The translations under genes and the position numbers were made by a program. From Verrucomicrobiales bacterium (lineage in GTDB: Bacteria > Verrucomicrobiota > Verrucomicrobiia > Limisphaerales > JACDHS01), in assembly GCA_028293445.1 (NCBI GenBank), contig JAQGOU010000641.1, positions 1-34,968 on the forward strand: a stretch of 34,968 nucleotides of DNA, written 5' to 3'. Positions within the stretch are counted from its first letter, which is position 1. Each line of letters begins with the position of its first letter. Of the stretch, positions 5,301 through 23,395 are shown in pieces. Under the pieces are notes generated by a model, which did no database searches, had not been told where the DNA came from, and saw only the letters and a program-made list of their open reading frames with translations.

Positions 5301-8300
5301 TTAAGGGTGGTCGGTCAATTTCGCGCTGTGCGTCTGGCGCACAGGCGCTGCGCCAATCGGAATCGTTACAGTGAAGTTAGCTCCTTTACCCAAATCACTC
5401 TCGATGCTAAGTCCAAGCCCCGCCTGTTGTGCCAGGGAATAAACGAGCGAGAGGCCAAGCCCCGTTCCAGCTTTGGCTCCGCTCCGTTTCGTGGTGAAGA
5501 AAGGCTCAAACAATCGGTCGCGAATTTCGGGCGCGATTCCCGGACCGGAATCAATCACGCTCAATTCCAAATATTGTTCCGCCGGAAACGGCCGTAAACT
5601 GTAAGTTCGCATGGGCAGGGATGGTCGCGAATGGAGAGAAATTTTCAACCGACCCTCGCCGTGCATCGCTTCCGAAGCGTTAACCAGCAAGTTTAATAAA
5701 ATTTGTTCCAGCGGTCCGCGAGGGACTTCGACTTTGGGGACGTTGCGCTCCAGTTCCAACGTCAGCGCGATTCCGCTCAGAAACTCACGGCTTAAGAGTG
5801 AGACAGCTTCTTCAACAACGGTGCCGAGGTCGGTCGGTTCTCCGCTGTCTTTTTCAGGACGCGCATAACCAAGTATCGAGTTCACCACGCTCTTCCCCTG
5901 CAACACGGCTTGTTCGATGTCCGCGACATGCTCTTGAATGCCTGCGTCAGCGGGAGCCTGGCGTCCGATGAGCTTGTTCGACATGCGAACGACCGAGAGC
6001 AAATTATTGAAATCGTGCGAGATGCCCGTTGCGAGAGTTCCGAGTGCCTGCATTTTCTGGCTGTGCATCAACTCGACCTTGGCGACATCCAATTCCCGGT
6101 TGCGCTCCGCTGCGTCTGCTTCGGCGACGACAAAGCGTTTGATTGCGATGTGGTGCCGACGCAACGTCAATAAAACCAAAAGTGCAACCAACATGGATCC
6201 GCCCATGCTGGACATGACAATCATCTTCCAGCTTCCAGAACTGCGTTGCGTCGGATCGATGGCGGTGCTCACTTGTTCCTGAGTCGCGCCCCAATTGATT
6301 TTCATTGCGGTCAGCTCCTTCCGGAGTTGACCCATGCGCCACACTTCGACCATGTCACTTGCGGTTGCCATGACGAGAGTGGATCCATCGAGCGACAAGC
6401 GCACGCTGTTGATACTTTGCGCCACTGGGGAAACTAGATCGCCGATCTTTTCGTTGGATCGCCAATCGCGCAGTTGCACCCGTTGCCGTGTCTGTGAGAC
6501 GGCGATTGTTTTATCGTCGGGCATGAAGGCGAATGCGGCATGCGTCAGGGAAGCCTCGTCGCGTGCGAACTCCTTTTGCAATTTCCAGTCTCCGACCGAC
6601 CAAATGGAGTAATGACTAATCCCCGCCAGGCCGAGCCAACGTCCATCCGGGCTGAAGCAAACCAAGGACGTAACGGTTGGCAATTCGGCCGCCAATTCTC
6701 CGCTGTTTCCATTCCAGACCTTGGGAGTATCGGACTCAAAATCGAAACCGGTTACAACCCAATTGCCGTCCGGACTGATGGCGAATCGTCCTGCACCGGT
6801 AGCGCTCGCCGGCCCTTTGAAATTGAGATTACGCCACCGGCCTTTCATTACTACGGGCGGAGTCTTGGCGGTCAGGTCAATCCTGACCAGGCGTCGGTCC
6901 GTCAATTCCACAGCGGCCCAATGATCATCCTGACTCAATGCAACAGCTCTGGCACCCAACCCGTCGGGCAACGAGATTTTTTTGGCCTGTGCTGACGACA
7001 GTTGTAATGCCCCGACGACGTTCGTCGAAAACGGCCACTCCTCCAAACCACCGTCGCTGCAAACGAAGACAGCGTTTTCTTTCATCGACACACGCACGTT
7101 GGAAACCGCACCAGGCACATACGTTTCCTTGTCGCCAGAGCTCAAATCCCAAAGTCGAAAGCCTTTAGTTTGCGTGACTGCGCACCATCGACCGCTCAAC
7201 GAGAGATCGATTGATAGCAGGAAGCCTTCGCTCTTGGGACATTCATGAAGCGCAAAAAGATTGCTGGGCAAGATCCGCCACGTCCCAAATCCGGCCCAGG
7301 GCTTCCAAAAAATAATACGCTGATCGTCGGACGTGAAAGTGCAGCCCATGCCTTCACCAATGGCGATCAATCGACCGAGGCGCACATCCCAAAGCCGCGT
7401 CGTGCCGTCGCGCGAACTGGAAAAGAACAGCGTCCCGGTAGAATTAAATGCCAGTCGGAGGCCCCGCTCGCTGTGACCAGTAAAATGTTGTTGTATCTTG
7501 TGTTCAGGGTCCCACAGGAGAACTCCACCGTCATTACCAGAAACGGCTAACCGTGTGTTGTCGGGAGACCATTCGATCATTTGCACGGGTGCCGCGTGCG
7601 TGAGCGTTGCCCGTTGTACTCCAGACGGAAAATCCAAAACGTCCACCCGGTTGTCCGTGACGATTGCGACCTGTTTTAAATCGGGGCGCACGCGAAATGT
7701 TTTCCCCCAGACATTGATGCCGCTGGCAATGCGTTGTCCGGTTATCACATTATAAATGGAAATGTTGCCCTGTTCAGCGAGGTCACCGAACGTCAGGAGC
7801 GTTGAATCCGACGAGAAAGCCAATCCAGTCAAGCGACGCGAGACGAGTGTATTCGTCGCGGCGACACTGTTCCAAAAAATGGGTTTTCGGGTTTCCAGAT
7901 TCCAGACCACCACGGTCCCACTGTCGAATCGTGCCGCCAGCAACGAGCTGTCCGGACTGATCGAAAGATCCCCGACCGGTCGCTGCGTCCAGCCGCTGAT
8001 CGCTGTTCCATCCAGCACGAACAGTTGACGACCATCCACGAGACTGTGAATGAGCACGTTTCCGGGACCGTCACCGAAAGCGAAATACTTCATACGCGAA
8101 TCTGTCAGGAAACGGGATAAACCTTTCGGCGTCGGAATGTTCGGTCCATCCGGCACCAAATCGGACAAAGCGAGACATGCGATAGCTTCCGTTCGCAATT
8201 CCGGGGAGAGCCGGATCGCGGCAGCGTTGCTGATGGCGTTCATGGCCGCTGCGCGACCACCCGCCTCTGAAGAGACTCGAAAAGCACGGGCTCCTTCTGT

Positions 8301-13355: not shown

Positions 13356-13395
13356 TTTGGTGCTAGCGCACGGCCACGGCGCCTGCGGCGCATCT

Positions 13396-13472
13396 GCTTC
13401 CGTAGCTTAAATCGTTAAAGCAACCCGTTGTCTGCGGGAAGAGTGTGGGTGCAACTCCCACCGGAGGCGCCA
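13396..13472 (+). tRNA. tRNA-Asp(GUC)
   Basis: Acceptor GCTTCCG/CGGAGGC, discriminator G (as expected for Asp), CCA encoded. Anticodon loop TTGTCTG. T arm GTGGG-TGCAACT-CCCAC with G55. The D loop AAATCGTTA lacks GG. Confidence 0.85.
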
Positions 13473-13479
13473 TTTTTAC

Positions 13480-13554
13480 TGCTCAGTGGGATAATAGTAG
13501 TCCACCCGCTTGTTAAGCGGAACGGTGTTGGTGCGATTCCGACCTGAGCAGCCA
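13480..13554 (+). tRNA. tRNA-Asn(GUU)
   Basis: Acceptor TGCTCAG/CTGAGCA, discriminator G, CCA encoded. Anticodon loop TTGTTAA on a CCGC/GCGG stem. T loop TGCGATT (G55). Confidence 0.85.
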
Positions 13555-13589
13555 TTTTGATTACTAACCAACCGAAAGAAAGGAAGCCA

Positions 13590-13733
13590 ATGAAGCCAGT
13601 CAATCGTTATAAAAGTCAGTTGCTCTATAGTAAGAGCTACAAGCCGGTCCGCACCTTTCGAATCCGTCAGGGCGTGAAGAGCGGCCTGACGTTTCGCCCC
13701 ACACGCCTCAGTGTCGATCGAAAGATCGCGTGA
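13590..13733 (+). CDS. Small basic protein between tRNA genes
   Basis: A 47-residue protein, MKPVNRYKSQLLYSKSYKPV followed by RTFRIRQGVKSGLTFRPTRL and ending VDRKIA. It is preceded by a good ribosome-binding site (AAAGGAAG, six bases before the ATG). About a quarter of its residues are Lys or Arg, which fits RNA binding. I do not recognise the family. It lies between tRNA-Asn and tRNA-Ile and is followed at once by a large hairpin. Being embedded in an RNA array, it could be an RNA-binding accessory or a relic. Confidence 0.55.
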   Translation: MKPVNRYKSQLLYSKSYKPVRTFRIRQGVKSGLTFRPTRLSVDRKIA

Positions 13734-13738
13734 ACGCT

Positions 13739-13779
13739 TGCCGGCTGCTGCTTTTCTATAGCGAAAGCAGTGGCCGGCA
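13739..13779 (+). other. 16-bp perfect hairpin between small ORF and tRNA-Ile
   Basis: TGCCGGCTGCTGCTTT pairs along its whole length with AAAGCAGTGGCCGGCA (two G-U pairs), with loop TCTATAGCG. There is no T run, so it is more likely an RNA processing or stability element than a terminator. Confidence 0.6.
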
Positions 13780-13790
13780 CGCTAGTGCCC

Positions 13791-13861
13791 CCTTCTGTAG
13801 CTCAAAAGCAGAGCACCCGCCTGATAAGCGGGAGAACACGGAGCGTTACCGCGCAGAAGGA
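13791..13861 (+). tRNA. tRNA-Ile(GAU)
   Basis: Acceptor CCTTCTG/CAGAAGG, discriminator A, followed by GCA rather than CCA. The anticodon arm CCCGC-CTGATAA-GCGGG is perfect. The T loop AGCGTTA lacks both T54 and A58, but G55 and C56 are present. The short D loop AAAAGCA has no GG. Confidence 0.8.
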
Positions 13862-13865
13862 GCAT

Positions 13866-13941
13866 CCCCTAAATAGCTGAGATAGATTAGCGCCTCGTTG
13901 AAGCCGAGGAGACGTTGGTGCGATACCAACTTTGGGGACCA
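13866..13941 (+). tRNA. tRNA-Phe(GAA)
   Basis: Acceptor CCCCTAA with TTTGGGG (one T-T mismatch), discriminator A, CCA encoded. Anticodon arm CCTCG-TTGAAGC-CGAGG. T arm GTTGG-TGCGATA-CCAAC (G55). Confidence 0.8.
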
Positions 13942-13951
13942 TTTTTAATAT

Positions 13952-14029
13952 GTCCGTGAATGCAAAGCAGATCGAGCAATCCGTTTTTCCAACGGAGCCT
14001 AGCCGGTGCAAGTCCGGCCACGGATACCA
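13952..14029 (+). tRNA. tRNA-Glu(UUC)
   Basis: Acceptor GTCCGTG/CACGGAT, discriminator A, CCA encoded. Anticodon arm TCCGT-TTTTCCA-ACGGA. T arm GCCGG-TGCAAGT-CCGGC (G55). Position 37 is C, which is unusual. Confidence 0.8.
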
Positions 14030-14033
14030 ATTC

Positions 14034-14111
14034 GTCCACGTAGCTCAGTTAGATTAGAGCGCCACTTTGCGAAGGTGGAGGTCACAGGTGCGAGTCCTGT
14101 CGTGGACACCA
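14034..14111 (+). tRNA. tRNA-Arg(GCG)
   Basis: Acceptor GTCCACG/CGTGGAC, discriminator A, CCA encoded. Anticodon loop TTGCGAA. The D arm GCTC-AGTTAGATTA-GAGC is the clearest case where the usual GG reads AG. T arm ACAGG-TGCGAGT-CCTGT (G55). Confidence 0.88.
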
Positions 14112-14122
14112 TTTTATGTTTT

Positions 14123-14198
14123 CAGGATTGTGGTGTAATCAGCAGCATCTTCGTTTGTGAAACGAACGGTCCGGGTGCGAATCCCGGCTTCCTGACCA
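14123..14198 (+). tRNA. tRNA-His(GUG)
   Basis: Acceptor CAGGA/TCCTG (five pairs, then mismatches), discriminator A, CCA encoded. Anticodon arm TTCGT-TTGTGAA-ACGAA. T arm CCGGG-TGCGAAT-CCCGG (G55). The bacterial His identity pair G-1:C73 is not evident. Confidence 0.8.
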
Positions 14199-14210
14199 AT
14201 TTATAGTTTT

Positions 14211-14342
14211 CGATGGGCCGAAGTTTGCAGGTTATCTCACGCAAGGGGAGGACGCTCGCCACGAGAGAGCGCCGGGACGAAAGTTCAGGTCGGGTTCGAT
14301 TCCCGTTACGAGATCCCCACTCTGCGACGCACTTGTCCATCG
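14211..14342 (+). ncRNA. Y RNA a (Ro-binding stem with tRNA-like T-arm domain)
   Basis: The ends pair as CGATGGGC/GTCCATCG. The 5' strand continues CCGAAGTTTGCAGGTTATC and the 3' strand ends CGCACTTGTCC. This closely follows the Ro-binding ends of vertebrate Y1 RNA (GGUCCGAAG...GUUAUC and GCACUUG, from memory). Inner helix TTGCAG/CTGCGA. The domain inside has a canonical T arm (CGGG-TTCGATT-CCCG), a GG-CGCTC/GAGCG-CC hairpin and an ATCTC/GAGAT stem next to the Ro stem, so its tRNA-like part is arranged differently from units c-e. It begins 13 bp after tRNA-His. Confidence 0.72.
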
Positions 14343-14349
14343 ACTCTTT

Positions 14350-14458
14350 CACGGGCCGACGGTTTTTGGGTTATTGGAAAAGCAGTCTTCGGACTGTGAG
14401 CGGGTTCAAGTCCCGCCGATCAGGCAACTGATTGATCCCAGGCCAGACCTTGTCCGTG
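14350..14458 (+). ncRNA. Y RNA b (reduced tRNA-like domain)
   Basis: The closing helix CACGGGC/GTCCGTG has a changed pair relative to unit a that is compensated on the other strand. Conserved CCGA and CTT internal loop, inner helix TTTGGG/CCCAGG, then TTAT. The inside holds a UUCG-capped hairpin (CAGTC-TTCG-GACTG), a canonical T arm (GCGGG-TTCAAGT-CCCGC) and acceptor CGATCAG capped by the tetraloop GCAA and paired with CTGATTG. After AT the 3' inner-helix strand begins, so there is no D arm. This is a permuted acceptor/T-arm mini-helix rather than a full tRNA mimic. Confidence 0.75.
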
Positions 14459-14463
14459 TTTCC

Positions 14464-14485
14464 AACGAACCACAGAGCGGTTCGT
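14464..14485 (+). other. Hairpin between Y RNAs b and c
   Basis: ACGAACC pairs with GGTTCGT around loop ACAGAGC, followed by a short pyrimidine run. It may separate or terminate transcripts between units. Confidence 0.4.
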
Positions 14486-14492
14486 CAACTTT

Positions 14493-14620
14493 CGACGGGT
14501 CGTTGAATTGGGTTATCCCTATCACGGACGTGGTCGCCGGTTCGAGTCCGGCCTTCGGCTCCATTTGCCGGAGTAGCTCAGTGGTAGAGCACGTATTCCC
14601 AGTTCACTCCTTATCCGTCG
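14493..14620 (+). ncRNA. Y RNA c (circularly permuted tRNA mimic)
   Basis: Closing helix CGACGGGT/ATCCGTCG (covaries: GGGT with ATCC). Inner helix TGAATTGGG/CCCAGTTCA, 9 bp. In between come GTTAT, T arm GCCGG-TTCGAGT-CCGGC, acceptor 3' strand CTTCGGC (14553-14559), 7-nt loop TCCATTT, acceptor 5' strand GCCGGAG (14567-14573) and a canonical D arm GCTC-AGTGGTA-GAGC. The acceptor halves are in reverse of tRNA order and pair perfectly (one G-U). This matches the YrlA architecture, in which the anticodon arm is replaced by the Ro-binding stem. Confidence 0.85.
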
Positions 14621-14642
14621 TTTCTCTTCTGCACTTCAATTT

Positions 14643-14772
14643 CGATGGGCCGTTGATAGTGGGTTATTGGAACTGTTGGTTGGTGGTTCGAATCCGTCCT
14701 CGCGTTGTTTCAGCGCGAGTAGCTCAATTGGATAGAGCAGCAGTAAACATCCACGTCGCTTCTTGTCCGTCG
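14643..14772 (+). ncRNA. Y RNA d (circularly permuted tRNA mimic)
   Basis: Closing helix CGATGGGC/GTCCGTCG, then CCGTTGA and GGGTTAT. Inner helix GTGGGT/ATCCAC. T arm loop TTCGAAT. Acceptor CTCGCGT (14699-14705), loop TGTTTCA, partner GCGCGAG (14713-14719). D arm GCTC-AATTGGATA-GAGC with the canonical GG. A tRNA-like stem GCAGT/ACTGT can form where the anticodon stem would be. The next unit follows after only six bases, so processing rather than separate promoters is likely. Confidence 0.85.
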
Positions 14773-14778
14773 TCTTTT

Positions 14779-14893
14779 TAATGGGCCGTTAGATTCAGGT
14801 TATCTGTCATTGGTTCGACTCCAATCTGCTCCGCTAAACGGGGCAGTAGCTCAGAAGGTAGAGCAATTCTCTGGATCGTTCCCTTGCCCATTA
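14779..14893 (+). ncRNA. Y RNA e (circularly permuted tRNA mimic)
   Basis: Closing helix TAATGGGC/GCCCATTA is perfect, with compensated changes at four positions relative to unit d. CCGTTAG and GGTTAT are present. Inner helix GATTCAG/CTGGATC. T arm ATTGG-TTCGACT-CCAAT. Acceptor CTGCTCC (14826-14832), loop GCTAAAC, partner GGGGCAG (14840-14846). D arm GCTC-AGAAGGTA-GAGC, GG present. Confidence 0.85.
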
Positions 14894-14952
14894 CAATTTC
14901 CACAGCCGATTGGTTGCGGAGCGTTCACCATAAACACAACCCAGGAGGTTAT

Positions 14953-15166: not shown

Positions 15167-15212
15167 CGGATCGCTGCGGAAATATTATTCCCGGTAAAAA
15201 GACTCAATTCGA

Positions 15213-15274
15213 TGCGGGCCGAATGTGATGGGTTATCGCCTGATAAACGAACCGTCCCATCCACCTTGCCCGCA
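15213..15274 (+). ncRNA. Y RNA f (minimal, no tRNA-like domain)
   Basis: Closing helix TGCGGGC/GCCCGCA (a further compensated variant), CCGAATG after it, inner helix GTGATGGG with CCCATCCAC (one bulged C), then GGGTTAT with a small TTATC-GCCT-GATAA hairpin, and CACCTTGCCC on the 3' strand. At 62 nt it keeps only the Ro-binding module. It lies 61 bp upstream of the rsr start codon, so it is either an independent Y RNA or a 5'-UTR element through which Ro could bind its own messenger (inference). Confidence 0.75.
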
Positions 15275-15335
15275 CTACAGATTCGTTGGAGTCAAATCAA
15301 TCGGCTCCGGCAACACCAGAAAGGAAAACCAAACT

Positions 15336-16985
15336 ATGGCACTCAATTACGCAAAACTGTTTAACCGCCGCGTGACTCCACAGTCACAGCCGATTCCTGG
15401 ATCGAGTCAGGTCCGCAACTCGGCGGGCGGGTATTCATGGGAAGTCGATGACTGGCAGAAGCTCGATCGCTTTCTTATACTCGGAGCGGAAGGCGGCACT
15501 TACTACATCGGCGAGCGCGATCTCGTGAAACAGAATCACGACGCGATCATTCGCTGTATCAAGTTCAACGGTGCGCGTGTGGTCAATCGCATCGTCGAAA
15601 TCTCGGAGAGCGGCCGCGCTCCGAAAAACGATCCAGCGATCTTCGCCCTCGCGCTTGTGGTCACGCACGCGGTGCCGGAGGTGAAAGCGCACGCCTTCGC
15701 AAACTTGAACAAAGTTTGCCGCATCGGGACGCACCTCTTCCACTTCGCGCAGTATGTGAACGCGATGCGCGGGTGGGGACGTGGGCTGCGCAATGCCGTT
15801 TCGAGTTGGTATGCGTCGCAAAGCGTCGACGCACTCGCGTTGCAGGTCATTAAATATCAGCAGCGCGATGGCTGGTCGCATAGCGACTTGCTCCGTCTTG
15901 CCCATGCGAAAGCGCCGAGTCGTGAATACGACACGCTCTTTCGCTGGATTCTTGCGGGTGAGAGTGGTCTTGGTGAGCGCACGGTTTCACGCAAAGTGAA
16001 CGGTGAAAACCGCGTGGCTAAATACCAGGCCGTCGGTGAACTGCCGCAGTTGGTTCAAGCCTTCGAGCAAGCGAAACGCGCGTTGAGCAAAAGCGAAATC
16101 GTGAAACTCATCACGGATTCGAATTTGCCGCGCGAAGCCATCCCGACGCAATGGCTGAATGAGGTCGCGGTGTGGGATGCGTTGCTTCAACGCATGCCGA
16201 TGACCGCGATGATTCGTAACCTCGGTAAGATGACGAGTCTCGGCTTGCTGAAACCCTTCAGCGACGCCCGGAAGCTTGTCGTCACCAAGCTGAAAGACGA
16301 ATCCGCATTGAAACGCGCCCGTGTTCATCCTCTGGCCATCTTGATCGCAGCGAAAATCTACGCTCAAGGACATGGCGATAAAGGCGATCTGAAATGGTCG
16401 CCTGTTTCGCAGGTCGTGGATGCACTCGATGAGGCGTTTTATGCGACGTTTGCCAACGTTGAGCCTTCCGGCAAACCGGTCCTGTTGGCTCTCGACGTCA
16501 GTGGCTCGATGGGGATCTCGATGATTGCGGGCTCGTGCCTGAGTGCGCGTGAAGCCAGTGCCGCGATGGCATTGATCACGGCGGCTACGGAAGACGAATG
16601 CCACATCATGGGATTCTCCAGTGAGTTCGTTCCATTGAACATCTCGCCGCGCATGCGTCTGGATGATGTCGTCAAACGCCTGAGTAGCTTGCCGTTTGCG
16701 GCGACCGACTGCGCGTTACCGATGGTTTGGGCGCAGCGCAATAAGCTCAATGTTTCCGCATTCGTGACCTACACGGACTCGGAGACGTGGGCGGGGAACG
16801 TGCACCCTTCACAAGCATTGCGCGCTTATCGCGGAGAATTCGCACCGGATGCAAAAGCGGTGGTCGTCGGCATGACGAGTAACGGCTTCACCCTCGCGGA
16901 TCCAAACGATCGCGGGATGTTGGACGTCGTTGGCTTCGATACCGCGGCACCCGCTGTTATCGCGGATTTCATCCGCAGTGGATAA
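15336..16985 (+). CDS. rsr: Ro60/Rsr RNA-binding protein (TROVE + vWA)
   Basis: A 549-residue orthologue of Ro60/Rsr, the ring-shaped protein that binds Y RNAs on its outer face and 3' ends of misfolded or decaying RNAs in its pore, and in bacteria works with PNPase and RNA repair. The TROVE domain spans residues ~10-360 (NSAGGYSWEVDDWQKLDRFL, LGAEGGTYY, HDAIIRCIKFNGARVVNRIVEIS). The C-terminal vWA domain has an intact MIDAS: D387-x-S389-x-S391 (LDVSGSMG) and D481 (TYTDSETW). The start is set by AAGGAA about ten bases before the ATG; upstream in-frame codons would overlap Y RNA f. A terminator follows. The tandem Y RNAs immediately upstream are its expected ligands. Confidence 0.95.
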   Translation: MALNYAKLFNRRVTPQSQPIPGSSQVRNSAGGYSWEVDDWQKLDRFLILGAEGGTYYIGERDLVKQNHDAIIRCIKFNGARVVNRIVEISESGRAPKNDPAIFALALVVTHAVPEVKAHAFANLNKVCRIGTHLFHFAQYVNAMRGWGRGLRNAVSSWYASQSVDALALQVIKYQQRDGWSHSDLLRLAHAKAPSREYDTLFRWILAGESGLGERTVSRKVNGENRVAKYQAVGELPQLVQAFEQAKRALSKSEIVKLITDSNLPREAIPTQWLNEVAVWDALLQRMPMTAMIRNLGKMTSLGLLKPFSDARKLVVTKLKDESALKRARVHPLAILIAAKIYAQGHGDKGDLKWSPVSQVVDALDEAFYATFANVEPSGKPVLLALDVSGSMGISMIAGSCLSAREASAAMALITAATEDECHIMGFSSEFVPLNISPRMRLDDVVKRLSSLPFAATDCALPMVWAQRNKLNVSAFVTYTDSETWAGNVHPSQALRAYRGEFAPDAKAVVVGMTSNGFTLADPNDRGMLDVVGFDTAAPAVIADFIRSG

Positions 16986-17280: not shown

Positions 17281-18072
17281 ATGAAAGTTGAGATCCTATT
17301 TATCATTGGCCTTGCCCTGGCCTTTGTTTTCGGCGCGTGCATACGGAAGAAAGTGCGCCGCGCCTTTATTGTCCCCGAAGGTTATGCCGGTCTGCTCTAC
17401 CAATACGGTCAGTTCGTGGAAACGCTCGGCGCAGGGCGACACATTCGTTGGGGGCTGAACTTCACTTTGGAACCGGTCGACTTCCGTAAAGCATTCCTCA
17501 ACGTCCCGGGTCAAGAGGTTCTTACCGCGGATACTGTTGGTCTCAAGGTGAGTTTGTCGTTGGCCTACCAGATGACGGACCCGATCAAGGCCGCTCACGA
17601 CACGCAGAATTGGCAGACCGATCTCTACAATTCCGCGCAGTTGGCGTTGCGTTCTGTCATTGGCGGCCTTGCGACCGAAGCCTTGCTGGACCAGCGCCTG
17701 GAGATCGGCGCGCAACTTCTCGCTCGTGTGCAACCGGACGCAGCGAAGGTCGGCATTCACGTTCTTGCTGTGGAGGTGAAGGACGTGATGTTTCCGGCCG
17801 AACTGAAACGCGCCTTTGCGGAAGTGTTGAAGGCGAAACAAGAAGGCCAGGCCGCGCTCGAACGTGCACGTGGCGAAAGCGCGGCTCTCCGCAATCTCGC
17901 CAACGCCGCTCGTGTGCTGGACGGAAACCCAGCGCTGATGAACCTCCGTCTGTTGCAGTCGATGGATGCAGCGCACAACGCTGGTAGCACGCTGATGTTT
18001 GGAATGCCAAACGGTTTCGTGCCGTTGAAAGCCGGCAAGCCGATCTCAGAAAAAGAAGCGGGTGAAACTTAA
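17281..18072 (+). CDS. Slipin / SPFH (band 7) family membrane protein
   Basis: 263 residues: an N-terminal membrane anchor (ILFIIGLALAFVFGACI), then the SPFH domain (RAFIVPEGYAGLLYQYGQFVETLGAGRHIRWG, TADTVGLKVSLSLAYQMTDP, VEVKDVMFPAELKRAFAEVLKAK) and an Ala/Glu-rich coiled coil (KQEGQAALERARGESAALRN). These proteins oligomerise in detergent-resistant membrane patches. The start is fixed by AAAGGAGGAAGTAATG. SPFH proteins recur beside Ro and RtcB genes in bacterial RNA-repair loci (established in general terms), so here it probably tethers the Ro/Y RNA machinery to the membrane (inference). A hairpin terminator follows. Confidence 0.9.
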   Translation: MKVEILFIIGLALAFVFGACIRKKVRRAFIVPEGYAGLLYQYGQFVETLGAGRHIRWGLNFTLEPVDFRKAFLNVPGQEVLTADTVGLKVSLSLAYQMTDPIKAAHDTQNWQTDLYNSAQLALRSVIGGLATEALLDQRLEIGAQLLARVQPDAAKVGIHVLAVEVKDVMFPAELKRAFAEVLKAKQEGQAALERARGESAALRNLANAARVLDGNPALMNLRLLQSMDAAHNAGSTLMFGMPNGFVPLKAGKPISEKEAGET

Positions 18073-18942: not shown

Positions 18943-19014
18943 ATCCCATTAGCCGAGTAGCTCAGGCGACGGTCTGCAAAACCGTTTACGTTGGTGCGAT
19001 TCCAACATGGGATT
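18943..19014 (+). tRNA. tRNA-Cys(GCA)
   Basis: Acceptor ATCCCAT/ATGGGAT, discriminator T (Cys identity), CCA not encoded. Anticodon arm ACGGT-CTGCAAA-ACCGT. D arm GCC/GGC with loop GAGTAGCTCA. T arm GTTGG-TGCGATT-CCAAC (G55). Confidence 0.85.
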
Positions 19015-19022
19015 CTAATTTC

Positions 19023-19098
19023 GCGGCAGTGATGTGAAGAACCAGCATGTCAGTCTTCCAAACTGATCGTCCGGGTGAGAATCCCGGTTGCCGCACCA
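19023..19098 (+). tRNA. tRNA-Gly(UCC)
   Basis: Acceptor GCGGCAG/TTGCCGC, discriminator A (Gly usually has U), CCA encoded. Anticodon arm TCAGT-CTTCCAA-ACTGA. T arm CCGGG-TGAGAAT-CCCGG: G55 as in the others, and uniquely A at position 56. Confidence 0.8.
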
Positions 19099-19121
19099 AC
19101 TCTAGAAAAGAAAAATGCGTG

Positions 19122-19283
19122 ATGAAGTCTCAAATGAGATTGGCGCTCCCGCAAGCGGGATTAAGTCCTGACGCCCCGGCACTAAGATCTCAAAGCCGGA
19201 AAGGGACCCGAGCTCATCACCACGCAGAAGGAATTTACTCGTTCCGAAGACTCCTTCAACCGGAAGTTATTCACGAAATTTAG
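19122..19283 (+). CDS. Doubtful 53-residue ORF or structured RNA
   Basis: The frame reads MKSQMRLALPQAGLSPDAPA then LRSQSRKGTRAHHHAEGIYS and ends LLQPEVIHEI; basic, no family recognised, and only a weak purine tract (AAAAGAAAAA) upstream. The same stretch forms many hairpins (TGAGAT with ATCTCA enclosing GGCG/CGCC and TCCCGC-AA-GCGGGA; CCGGC/GCCGG; GAAGGA/TCCTTC), so it may be an RNA gene of the island instead. Confidence 0.3.
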   Translation: MKSQMRLALPQAGLSPDAPALRSQSRKGTRAHHHAEGIYSFRRLLQPEVIHEI

Positions 19284-19344
19284 GGAGGCGGGTGCGCAGT
19301 CAGGTTACACCCACCTGGCTGTGGTGGTTCGACTCCACCCTCCC
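19283..19344 (+). tRNA. Anticodon-armless tRNA-like RNA with canonical T loop
   Basis: GGGAG pairs with CTCCC as an acceptor. GGGTG pairs with CACCC as a D arm (loop CGCAGTCAGGTTA with a normal GG). Then ten bases lead directly into T arm GGTGG-TTCGACT-CCACC. There is no space for an anticodon arm. Either a deliberate minimal tRNA mimic or a tRNA gene that lost its anticodon arm. Confidence 0.45.
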
Positions 19345-19390
19345 GTTCGGTCGGTTCTCGAAAAAGGTGAAATTCCGCGATAGGAAAAAG

Positions 19391-19998
19391 ATCCTTATAC
19401 TTTTAAAAGGCAGTTTTCCGAGACGAGAAAACGTCCTTTTACAAATATTAGCGGAAAATTGTGCCGGGAAATTTGGCCTTATAAGGGAAAAGGCCGGAAA
19501 ATTGCCATGGGAAAAGTGCCTTTTACGCGTATAAGGCAAATTTCCGGGACCAAAAAACCACCTTTTACCCGTATAAGGCAAATTTTGGAGACCGGGAAAC
19601 CTCCTTTTACGCGTATAAGGCGTTTTTTGGGCGTCTGAAAACTACCTTTTACGCATATTCGAGGAAAAATTCTTCCGGGAAGTTCGTCTATACGCGTATA
19701 AGGCAAATTTTTGCTCTGTCGAAAAGACCTTTTACGCGTAAAAGGCACTTTTCCCGGAGGTTTTTCTCCTCTTTTCCGTATAGGGCAGTTTCCCCGGACC
19801 AAAATTTCGCCTTATACGCGTAAAAGGTGTTTTTCCGGGACCGCCAAAGAGCCTTTTACGCGTAAAAGGCAGTTTCGGACGACGGCGCAACGCACTTTTT
19901 GCGTAAAAGGCGTTTTTAGAGGCCCGTTTTTTTGCCTTTTACGCGTATAAGGCATTTTTCCCAGCGCCGGAATTTCTACCTTATACGCAAATTGCCTT
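19391..19998. repeat. Phased palindromic repeat array, ~42-bp period, 15 units
   Basis: Cores resembling GCCTTTTACGCGTATAAGGC recur with starts near 19393, 19435, 19477, 19519, 19561, 19603, 19646, 19687, 19728, 19769, 19810, 19852, 19893, 19935 and 19979. Units differ by point changes; the best are near-palindromes. Between cores lies a second degenerate motif, T tract-CCGGGACC-A tract. The mean spacing of 41.9 bp is four helical turns, with A/T tracts about every 10 bp, so the DNA should be curved and present all sites on one face. It is gene-free and lies between the two RNA blocks on the right of the island. Confidence 0.85.
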
Positions 19999-20067
19999 TT
20001 GTAACCGTTTGATTCTGAGACAGGTGCGGAATTCATAGCCGAATACCCGCACTTTTTCCAGTTTGCC

Positions 20068-20144
20068 GCCGCGTTAGCCCAATTAGAAGAGGCACCCCGC
20101 TCAGAACGGGGAGGTTGAAGGTGCGAGTCCTTCACGCGGTACCA
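20068..20144 (+). tRNA. tRNA-Leu(CAG), class I shape
   Basis: Acceptor GCCGCGT/ACGCGGT, discriminator A, CCA encoded. Anticodon arm CCCCG-CTCAGAA-CGGGG reads Leu, but the variable loop is only five bases, whereas bacterial tRNA-Leu normally has a long variable arm. The D loop AATTAGAAGA shows AG for GG. T loop TGCGAGT (G55). Confidence 0.82.
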
Positions 20145-20149
20145 CTTTC

Positions 20150-20224
20150 GCCCGTTTAGTCCAATGCAGAGACAGCGAACTTAAAATTCGCACAGTGCCG
20201 GTGCAAGTCCGGCAACGGGCACCA
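20150..20224 (+). tRNA. tRNA-Leu(UAA), class I shape
   Basis: Acceptor GCCCGTT/AACGGGC, discriminator A, CCA encoded. Anticodon arm GCGAA-CTTAAAA-TTCGC. Short variable loop ACAGT. T arm GCCGG-TGCAAGT-CCGGC (G55). Five bases separate it from the preceding Leu gene. Confidence 0.82.
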
Positions 20225-20258
20225 CGCTTTTGTATGTCGTCCGCGAAGGACCGAAATT

Positions 20259-20345
20259 GGAATGTCGACCAGACAAGGTTCTGGGCCTGTTTGCTAAACA
20301 GTGCGTCCCGCCTGGCGGGATGTGGTGCAAGTCCACGGCATTCCG
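20259..20345 (+). tRNA. tRNA-Ser(GCU), class II
   Basis: Acceptor GGAATGT/GCATTCC, discriminator G, CCA not encoded (CAC follows). Anticodon loop TTGCTAA. A long variable arm TCCCGCC/GGCGGGA, as expected for Ser. T arm GTGG-TGCAAGT-CCAC (G55). Confidence 0.82.
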
Positions 20346-20760
20346 CACCTCCCACGACACACTTTTTCGCGAGCCTTTCAAAGGGCTCGCTCACCACTTT
20401 CACCCCGGACGTAGCGCTCGAGGCGTCTGGCTCCCCGACGCAGTCGAACCGGGAGGAACCGCGTTCCGGGGTGAATTCATTTGCTCACGCAGAGCGATTA
20501 CCAGAAGTAATTTCCGGAATGGTGAAATGGGGAGCCGGGCAGTGCTAGGCGCGAGTGACGCGCATGTCCTAATGGACCTGTAAGGAGCGAGCAACGACGC
20601 AATGCCCGGCTCCCCATTTCAGCCATAGGCCGGGGGTCTTTTGCTTTTTGTCTTCGTTGTCGGTCTCGGCAAGATCCACCAGGGATATTGCCTTCGACCT
20701 CCGCCTCGCCAAAAAACAAAATCCCTCCCGCCATTCCGGAAATTACTTCTGGCAATCGCT
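20346..20760. repeat. Cluster of nested inverted repeats
   Basis: No gene is seen. Hairpins in order: GCGAGCC/GGCTCGC at 20369-20390; TTCACCCCGGA (20399) with TCCGGGGTGAA (20465); a 30-bp inverted repeat with one mismatch, 20493-20522 against 20731-20760; directly inside its left arm a perfect 19-bp repeat, 20523-20541 against 20603-20621, enclosing GCGC/GCGC and GTCC-TAAT-GGAC hairpins; and GGCAAGATCC/GGGATATTGCC near 20668-20692. The right arm ends at the 5' end of a damaged tRNA-Leu. It could be a non-autonomous mobile element or a highly structured RNA; no transposase is present. Confidence 0.75.
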
Positions 20761-20830
20761 CTAGCCCAACAGAAGAGGCACGACGTTGAGAACGTCGACA
20801 GCGCAGGTGCGAATCCTGCCGTGAGCACCA
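20758..20830 (+). tRNA. tRNA-Leu(GAG), 5' acceptor truncated
   Basis: Anticodon arm CGACG-TTGAGAA-CGTCG, D arm GCCC/GGC with loop AACAGAAGA, T arm GCAGG-TGCGAAT-CCTGC (G55), acceptor 3' strand CGTGAGC, discriminator A, CCA encoded. The 5' strand reads GCTC and then TA directly, so three acceptor bases (expected ACG) are missing, exactly where the neighbouring inverted repeat ends. Probably inactivated, or a variant needing 5' repair. Confidence 0.7.
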
Positions 20831-20842
20831 TTTTTTAGTCGA

Positions 20843-20916
20843 GGCTCGCAAGCATTAAAGTGATGCAACGGACTTTTAATCCGTGGAACAGGGCGCATTA
20901 CCCTGGCGGGCCACCA
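20843..20916 (+). tRNA. tRNA-Lys(UUU)
   Basis: Acceptor GGCTCGC/GCGGGCC, discriminator A, CCA encoded. Anticodon arm ACGGA-CTTTTAA-TCCGT. D arm GCAT-TAAAGTG-ATGC, no GG. T arm CAGGG-CGCATTA-CCCTG with G55 and C56 but no T54 or A58. Confidence 0.85.
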
Positions 20917-20920
20917 GTTT

Positions 20921-20995
20921 TGCCGTTGAGTGTGGAAGTCTGCACACCTGTCTTTGACACAGGTAGAGCCGGAGCGTTACCGGCAGCGGCAGCCA
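20921..20995 (+). tRNA. tRNA-Gln(UUG)
   Basis: Acceptor TGCCGTT/AGCGGCA, discriminator G (as for Gln), CCA encoded. Anticodon arm CCTGT-CTTTGAC-ACAGG. T arm GCCGG-AGCGTTA-CCGGC, the same deviant loop as tRNA-Ile. Confidence 0.85.
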
Positions 20996-21041: not shown

Positions 21042-21626
21042 ATGTCCGACAAACTAAACAAAGCGACCGTCCTGGTCCTGAATCGAAACTGGCAGGCCAT
21101 CAATGTGCGCACGCCCGCCGACGCTATTTGCCAAATGGCAACCGGCGTAGCCACGGCTCTCGAGTTCGAAGGCGAGAATCAGATTCGTCCCGTCCGCTGG
21201 GCCGAATGGATCACGTTGTCGATTCGCGAAGTTGACCAGGCGATCTGCACCGTGCGCGGCCCGATTCGTCTGCCGACCGTTATTGTCCTCGCGAACTTTG
21301 CCAAGGTGCCGAAGAAGCGCCCGAAGTTTTGCGCGAAAACGATTCGTGAACGCGACGGGAATCGTTGCCAGTACACCGGCAAGGTCTTGAAGCCGGACGA
21401 AGGCAACATCGATCACGTTCTACCCCGTTCACGCGGCGGCCAGGATGTTTGGGAGAATTGCGTTTGGGCGAGCAAAGAGGTTAACAGCCGCAAAGGCAAT
21501 CGGTTGCCGGACGAGGCGGGATTGAAGTTGCTCACGACTCCAAAAGCGCCGAAAGAACTGCCGATGACGATGCTCATTCGCAATGCGCATGGAATTGCGG
21601 AGTGGAAATTGTTTTTGAACGAATAA
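21042..21626 (+). CDS. HNH endonuclease family protein
   Basis: 194 residues. The N-terminal ~85 residues (TVLVLNRNWQAINVRTPADAICQMA...WAEWITLSIRE) form the conserved leader of a widespread small HNH family. The HNH fold follows: KFCAKTIRERDGNRCQYTG, then D124-H125 (NIDHVLPRSRGG), N139 (WENCVWASKEVNSRKGNR). The zinc-binding Cys pairs of many HNH proteins are incomplete (only NRCQYTG), but the catalytic D-H...N set is intact. The start has no well-spaced Shine-Dalgarno. It lies between tRNA-Gln and RtcB; a DNA- or RNA-cutting role in the island is possible but not shown. Confidence 0.85.
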   Translation: MSDKLNKATVLVLNRNWQAINVRTPADAICQMATGVATALEFEGENQIRPVRWAEWITLSIREVDQAICTVRGPIRLPTVIVLANFAKVPKKRPKFCAKTIRERDGNRCQYTGKVLKPDEGNIDHVLPRSRGGQDVWENCVWASKEVNSRKGNRLPDEAGLKLLTTPKAPKELPMTMLIRNAHGIAEWKLFLNE

Positions 21627-22000: not shown

Positions 22001-23395
22001 ATGAACTCAAAAGATTTAATTCGATTGGGCGTGCCGTTTGGCGAGGCGACTCGTCGCGCGACGGATTTCATCGCGCAATACGTGCTCAGCGGCGGGGACA
22101 AATCACGCATTGAAGAGGAAGTGAAAGCGATCGTCGCGAACCCGGCGCTCTTTGCGGAGGACCCGTTGCGTAAAGAATTCGCAAAGGCCCTCGTCAACGC
22201 GCCGCCGCCGGCCCGCACGGATCCGGCCAAGTATCGCCAATGGGGCGAGGGTTTGGAATCCGAGGCGATCAATCAAATGGAGAAGGCGTGTTTCCTTCCT
22301 GTTTCGGTGGCGGGCGCGCTCATGCCGGATGCGCACGTGGGTTACGGCCTGCCGATCGGCGGTGTGTTGGCAACTGACAATTGTGTCATCCCGTACGCCG
22401 TCGGTGTCGATATCGCGTGCCGCATGAAAATGACGGTGCTCGATATTCCGGTGCGCGATCTTGAACACAAACAGGATCGTCTCACCCGCGCCATCGAGGC
22501 GGAGACACGCTTTGGCGTCGGTTCGACGTTCAAGCAACGCCGCTCCCACGACGTGCTCGATGCGGATTGGGGCTGCAGTGGCGTCACGAAACAAAATAAG
22601 GATCGCGCGTGGTCGCAGTTGGGCACGAGTGGTAGCGGTAATCACTTTGTTGAGTTCGGGCTTTTCACGGCGAACGAAAAGATTCTAGGACTTGAGCCGG
22701 GAACCTACGTCGCACTCTTGAGTCATAGCGGAAGCCGTGGCACGGGCGCTGCCGTCTGCGATTACTACAGCAAGCTTGCGGTGAAGAAACACCCTGAGCT
22801 GCCGAAGGAATTACAACGACTCGCCTGGCTTTCGCTGGACGAAGCGGATGGCCGCGAATACTGGGACGCGATGGAGTTGATGGGCCAATACGCTGCGGCG
22901 AATCACGCGTGTATCCATAAACACATGGCGGCAAACCTCGGCGCGGAAGTGTTGCTCGACCTCGAAAATCACCACAACTTTGCGTGGAAAGAAAAACACG
23001 TGATCGATGGTGTCGAACGCGAGGTCGTTGTGCATCGCAAAGGCGCGACGCCGGCCGGCGCAGGTGTGCTCGGAATTATTCCGGGCTCAATGGCGACGCC
23101 TGGGTTCGTGGTGCGCGGCAAGGGCAATGCGGAATCGTTGAATTCAGCGTCGCATGGTGCCGGACGAGTGATGAGCCGCACGAAAGCGTCCCAGACGTTT
23201 AACTGGAAAGAGGTGAATCAATTCCTGCGCGATCGCGGAGTGACGTTGATTTCGGCGGGCCTTGATGAAGTGCCGATGGTTTACAAAAACATCCATCAAG
23301 TGATGGCCGCACAATCCGATCTCGTCGACGTGATTGGTCAATTCGATCCGCGACTGGTGAAGATGGCGCCGCACGGCGAACGTGCCGAAGATTAA
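22001..23395 (+). CDS. rtcB: RNA 3'-phosphate/5'-OH ligase RtcB
   Basis: 464 residues, the GTP- and Mn2+-dependent ligase that joins RNA ends bearing 2',3'-cyclic or 3'-phosphate to 5'-OH ends, such as tRNAs cut by nucleases. All hallmark blocks are present: MPDAHVGYGLPIGGV, GVDIACRM (metal ligands D137, C140), GSGNHFVEFG, LSHSGSRGTG, NHHNFAW, HRKGATPA, IPGSMATPGFVVRG and SASHGAGRVMSR with H385 as the predicted guanylylation site. Length is close to the family norm. There is no rtcA cyclase, archease or rtcR regulator beside it. Linkage to Ro and Y RNAs recalls the rsr-yrlBA-rtcBA locus of enteric bacteria. Confidence 0.96.
   Translation: MNSKDLIRLGVPFGEATRRATDFIAQYVLSGGDKSRIEEEVKAIVANPALFAEDPLRKEFAKALVNAPPPARTDPAKYRQWGEGLESEAINQMEKACFLPVSVAGALMPDAHVGYGLPIGGVLATDNCVIPYAVGVDIACRMKMTVLDIPVRDLEHKQDRLTRAIEAETRFGVGSTFKQRRSHDVLDADWGCSGVTKQNKDRAWSQLGTSGSGNHFVEFGLFTANEKILGLEPGTYVALLSHSGSRGTGAAVCDYYSKLAVKKHPELPKELQRLAWLSLDEADGREYWDAMELMGQYAAANHACIHKHMAANLGAEVLLDLENHHNFAWKEKHVIDGVEREVVVHRKGATPAGAGVLGIIPGSMATPGFVVRGKGNAESLNSASHGAGRVMSRTKASQTFNWKEVNQFLRDRGVTLISAGLDEVPMVYKNIHQVMAAQSDLVDVIGQFDPRLVKMAPHGERAED

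Follow-up and report, generated by a model that had tools for sequence, protein, structure and literature searches.

The window analysed here, a stretch of DNA of 34,968 nucleotides, contains six Y RNA genes (units a to f) arranged in a run on the plus strand directly upstream of a Ro60 gene (Table 1). The six units probably form an array that serves the adjacent Ro60 protein, within which units b-e, spanning 14348-14894, would act as tRNA-shaped docks or decoys in a tRNA-damage island. Bacterial Y RNAs are known mainly as one or two per genome. The YrlA-type design of units b-e is known from single RNAs, and here it is multiplied and diversified within a tRNA array that is accompanied by RNA-repair genes. 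The Y RNAs are flanked on both sides by this tRNA array, and genes for Band_7, HNH and RtcB proteins are located further downstream.

Table 1. Features of the Ro60 locus and its surroundings; positions are those of the window.
Feature	Position	Strand	Description	Basis
tRNA array, left part	13396-14198	+	Asp, Asn, Ile, Phe, Arg, His; non-standard elbows	
Y RNA unit a	14210-14343	+	Ro stem and non-permuted, Deinococcus-Y-like middle with T arm	Ro motif GGCCG..GGTTAT; basal helix UCGAUGG/CCAUCGA; Deinococcus_Y_RNA 37.9 bits (cut-off 80)
Y RNA unit b	14348-14460	+	UUCG hairpin; T arm 14400-14416; acceptor hairpin 14417-14434 (CGATCAG 14417-14423, cap loop GCAA, CTGATTG 14428-14434); without D arm	
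Y RNA unit c	14492-14621	+	T arm 14536-14552; acceptor CTTCGGC 14553-14559/GCCGGAG 14567-14573; cap loop TCCATTT (as RNA UCCAUUU, N73-CCA); D arm 14576-14590	YrlA 40.2 bits; R1 85.4 bits; z -3.52
Y RNA unit d	14642-14773	+	T arm 14682-14698; acceptor CTCGCGT 14699-14705/GCGCGAG 14713-14719; cap loop TGTTTCA; D arm 14722-14738	YrlA 41.2 bits; R1 61.5 bits; comparative pairs
Y RNA unit e	14778-14894	+	T arm 14809-14825; acceptor CTGCTCC 14826-14832/GGGGCAG 14840-14846; cap loop GCTAAAC; D arm 14849-14864	YrlA 39.0 bits; R1 69.5 bits; z -3.10, all arms in minimum-energy fold
Y RNA unit f	15211-15276	+	Short; Ro stem, without tRNA-like part; nearest unit to Ro60 gene	Ro motif; z -3.30; many relatives have orthologues immediately upstream of Ro60
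Ro60/Rsr protein (TROVE and vWA)	15336-16985	+		Pfam TROVE 1.3e-45; vWA_Ro60 8e-65
Band_7/SPFH protein	17281-18072	+	Downstream of Ro60	
tRNA array, right part	18943-20995	+	Cys, Gly, Leu, Leu, Gln and two more tRNA matches	
HNH endonuclease	21042-21626	+		Homologues near Ro60 in several relatives
RtcB-type RNA ligase	22001-23395	+		Pfam 1e-86; homologues beside Ro60 in many relatives

Inspection of the run revealed a Ro-binding stem motif with paired ends in all six units, and the strict pattern GGYCG..GGTTAT placed the six motifs within about 1 kb on one strand. The basal helices each have their own sequence, yet each pairs. When 119 distinct units from several phyla were counted, base 3 of GGNCG and base 4 of CTTNY were found to switch together (C-G in 91, T(U)-A in 25 and other combinations in 3). 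The Y RNA genes adjoin the Ro60 gene in the window and likewise in relatives. The Ro60 gene product scored 510.9 bits against the NCBIfam Rsr model, below the 900-bit cut-off of that model. The units are presumed to be expressed and bound by Ro60.

In units b-e, a T arm with a TTCRA loop is followed by the 7-nucleotide acceptor 3′ strand, a cap loop of 4-7 nucleotides and then the acceptor 5′ strand. In units c-e, the acceptor 5′ strand leads into UA and then a D arm of four pairs. Reading at the level of individual bases confirmed all four of the acceptor strand pairs, as well as the D arm of units c-e, that had been described in an initial annotation of this DNA. Its interpretation of the module as a permuted one, with the 3′ half preceding the 5′ half and the open ends joined to the Ro stem, was also supported. 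The circularly permuted order leaves the acceptor end closed as a hairpin, with the Ro stem extending from the position that an anticodon arm would occupy. The set of units that was recognised initially, b-e, was correct but overlooked units a and f, which are the non-permuted members of the run. Because unit b is without a D arm, the tRNA-like domain is complete only in units c-e. No anticodon arm was recognised in b-e, either by inspection or by tRNA finders, and the latter found no intact tRNA genes overlapping the units, of the kind that the initial annotation had held to be incompatible with its interpretation.

A 5-bp T arm with a TTCNA loop, followed immediately by a 7-bp hairpin with a loop of 3-9 nucleotides, was found exactly four times on the plus strand of the window, at units b-e. 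In 20,000 dinucleotide shuffles of the middle region of each unit, a T stem plus acceptor arose in 32-158 shuffles, the same combination with a D arm in 0-8 and that with a TTCNA loop in none. Single-sequence folding gave z-scores of -2.2 to -3.5 for units b-f (-2.56 for b); unit a on its own folded no better than shuffles (z -0.77). The minimum-energy fold of unit d as a single sequence was not cloverleaf-like and was without the T arm, which was apparent from the comparative pairs.

Ro60 was used to retrieve comparison loci from other Verrucomicrobia. Orthologous arrays were present in many relatives and followed one order: the a-like unit comes first, then b and c (the latter with GGTCG), after which at least one e-like unit precedes f beside Ro60. 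This conservation of the array as separate orthologous units is new. In a core alignment of 20 units, 99.1% of cells were paired, a percentage that is biased upward because the units were picked by a pairing filter. Changes on both sides were observed in 11 of the 16 pairs, including 6 of the 7 acceptor pairs, which bears out the initial claim that each acceptor covaries individually. None of 500 shuffles scored as high, slid controls were 31-51% paired, and RNAalifold, given no structure, produced an identical structure for the core alignment. In loci retrieved afterwards, 12 distinct units had 80 of 84 acceptor pairs formed; a comparable filter had been applied to these units, and two of them may nearly duplicate earlier ones, so that they provide support rather than an unbiased test. 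When non-c units that differ in their acceptors exchanged strands, mean pairing fell from 6.9 to 3.9 of 7. The acceptors of e-like units drift with compensation, and the acceptor sequence of unit c is kept across genera.

A model of the module core (R1) was run on 293 genomes of the order. R1 alone is not specific: tandem ordinary tRNAs apparently reach scores in the 40s of bits, and at E 0.001 nearly all genomes give a match. Y RNAs were therefore called only from about 50 bits upward, a level reached in roughly 39 of the 293 genomes. Other arrangements were observed at individual comparison loci (denoted by L numbers). At L130, a Y unit with its motif at 1802 on the minus strand begins with an acceptor hairpin (GCCTCC-GCCATAT-GGAGGC), followed by a D arm, an anticodon-like arm and a T arm, as if a tRNA had been cut between T arm and acceptor. 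At L003 (3539, minus strand) and L028 (1974, plus strand), a tRNA of normal order is present within a Y RNA and has a GCAA tetraloop at the place of the anticodon loop.

The topology of the module is that of YrlA (RF02553), and the design is therefore already known. Shared with YrlA are the Ro stem, the order of T arm, closed acceptor hairpin and D arm (units c, d and e), the position of the gene beside Ro60/rsr and an RtcB gene in the neighbourhood, as in the Salmonella operon. The likeness to YrlA put forward initially was upheld, and the YrlA covariance model aligned to units c-e with matching arms. However, the scores of 39-41 bits are below the Rfam gathering threshold of 69 and 7 of 14 control genomes also weakly match the model, so the YrlA score alone proves little; the YrlA consensus gave no match in E. 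coli genomes. The window differs from known YrlA in having several distinct copies with a 7-bp acceptor, placed inside a tRNA array, and in the N-CCA loop of unit c, which takes the place of the short cap in the Rfam consensus. In addition, unit b lacks the D arm and units a and f are of another type. PMC8394870 describes YrlA as a mimic of the D, T and acceptor arms and as a substrate of DusA and TruB, and reports binding of its tRNA-like domain to PNPase, with a role in tethering that enzyme.

Unit a aligns over the full model of the Deinococcus radiodurans Y RNA (RF01053) but remains below its cut-off (Table 1), and units b-e are of a different type. A permuted module comprising T arm, acceptor and D arm is also found just upstream of Ro60 in the Y RNAs of mycobacteriophage HyRo and Gordonia phage Cashline, which have fewer units than the window and are without the N-CCA loop. 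As the Cashline locus contains two permuted modules with different acceptors, differing acceptors are not unique to the window, although they had been considered new in the initial annotation. Permuted tRNA genes of algae and archaea, some of which encode CCA in the loop, similarly place the 3′ half before the 5′ half; by contrast, the units in the window have no recognised anticodon arm and their ends form a protein-binding stem. Two-piece tmRNA likewise has the acceptor 3′ strand before the 5′ strand across a loop, but no tag sequence was identified in the units, and the genome encodes a separate ordinary tmRNA (G000:C186, 173 bits).

The cap loop of unit c consists of N-CCA and a spacer in 20 of 21 orthologues, the spacer ranging from 2 to 22 nucleotides (total loop 6-26) while CCA is constant. 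Because the N-CCA is kept and the spacer varies, as at a tRNA 3′ end, unit c may be opened in the manner of two-piece tmRNA. RNase P usually prefers U before G1 of a tRNA, and the base preceding G1 is U in 16 of 19 c units. An alternative to the array of closed modules can thus be formulated, in which the transcript of unit c is opened: RNase P would cut just ahead of G1 in the acceptor 5′ strand, and trimming on the 3′ side would stop at N-CCA. The product would be a tRNA mimic in two pieces, held by Ro60 and ending in a genuine CCA, comparable to the permuted tmRNAs, which work as two pieces (PMC3978253). N-CCA is also present in four b units and six D-arm units, which would favor opening. 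On the other hand, short caps (for example GCAA, GGAA or UCCG) close other b and e-like units, arguing against opening as a general need, U is also common before the ordinary tRNAs of the array, and the sole c exception (L024) has a long insert inside CCA. Moreover, the CCA could be an undecayed relic, given that the N-CCA loops have the look of a tRNA 3′ end plus leader and plausibly fit descent from tandem tRNA genes. Opening of unit c is on balance unlikely, and it is slightly more doubtful still that unit c and its orthologues represent a new RNA form, a permuted Y RNA module that is cut by RNase P and matured to CCA; the loop sequence of unit c is compatible with its continued use as an opened, CCA-ended RNA. 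If true, a Ro60-held two-piece tRNA from unit c could meet enzymes that need a free acceptor end.

Extra sequence in the acceptor cap loop was observed at L003, L024, L025, L032, L056 and L130, and several of these share a GCGCCAGCAC stretch; letters similar to this stretch also occur near position 13360 of the window.

The initial annotation had proposed that different acceptors signify that different tRNAs are mimicked. Such an array of specific mimics, each copying the acceptor of another tRNA, would be in keeping with the differences between units and with retention of the c acceptor across genera. When the 39 chromosomal tRNA genes of the genome were parsed and compared, the best host matches of the c, d and e acceptors were 10-11 of 14 bases, and host tRNAs of different isotypes matched one another at 8-12 of 14 acceptor bases. 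Nothing above this null was found for c, d and e, and mimicry of particular tRNAs is therefore unsupported. As the e-like acceptors also change freely with compensation, specific mimicry is considered improbable.

It is more improbable again that the units are permuted tRNA genes joined by RtcB into working tRNAs, a reading suggested by the order of the halves and the nearby RtcB gene. The outer ends of the units form the Ro stem, an anticodon arm was not recognised in b-e, tetraloops seal the acceptor in several orthologues, and the genome has a set of 39 tRNA genes on the chromosome. A reading of the units as remnants of tandem tRNA genes that decayed within the array has least to commend it, although the N-CCA loops, with their resemblance to a tRNA end and short spacer, make descent from such genes plausible: the common Ro motif and conservation across many genomes oppose it, and as a present-day description it is ruled out by covariation of the two acceptor strands in the 20-unit alignment.

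The elbow of the neighbouring tRNAs was examined in a set comprising the array tRNAs of the window (13396-14198 and 18943-20995) and those of the Verrucomicrobia loci L003-L059. Among 156 distinct genes, G55 (TGC for TTC in the T loop) was present in 150 and AG instead of GG in the D loop in 124; the few array tRNAs with TTC mostly retain GG. In contrast, U55 and GG were present in 39 of 39 chromosomal tRNAs of the genome, and U55 in 181 of 181 tRNAs of Ro60-linked loci in other phyla. Across the whole accessory tRNA set, both partners of the 18-55 tertiary pair seem to have changed in a compensatory manner. A literature search for an A18-G55 elbow gave nothing to the point. The Y RNA modules keep TTC, with GG in most D-arm units, and at the level of sequence their elbow resembles that of housekeeping tRNAs rather than that of the neighbouring array tRNAs. 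The presence of a rewired elbow in the array tRNAs beside an ordinary elbow in the Y RNAs is new. Between tRNA genes of the right part of the array, a dense run of repeats related to CCTTTTACGCGTATAAGG was observed at 19360-20010.

The most likely role of the units is to serve, while bound to Ro60, as tRNA-shaped docks or decoys within a tRNA-damage island that includes RtcB. Each RNA of the run would provide a Ro-binding stem, to which Ro60 would bind, and b-e would add the YrlA-type circularly permuted tRNA-like module. With an ordinary D-/T-loop elbow (c-e) and the acceptor helix, this module may hold, or compete for, a protein that recognises the tRNA elbow. Candidate partners include PNPase, as in RYPER, tRNA-modifying enzymes and a tRNA-cutting nuclease. 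The occurrence of several module versions beside RtcB and an accessory tRNA array would fit a tRNA-damage response island. RtcB and tRNAs with rewired elbows beside Y RNAs with normal elbows suggest a scheme of decoy, substitute and repair against tRNA damage. The units also form a natural series, with different acceptors, with or without a D arm and with sealed or CCA ends, which offers ready variants for tests of partner recognition.

A parallel from gene content is provided by Anabaena, where a single repressor, TrcR, governs the accessory trn tRNA array together with rtcB and the genes for an HNH protein and a slipin (PMC10272220). This gene set is strikingly similar to that of the window, but Ro60 and Y RNA are absent from the main text of that report. 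Upstream of the Y array, several relatives (L021 at 968-2080, L024, L028, L029, L032 and L056) have a second RtcB homologue, a distant one that shares about 27-30% identity with the RtcB of the window. Within the array at L024, ARAGORN identified a tRNA with anticodon TTA (stop) at 7463-7537.
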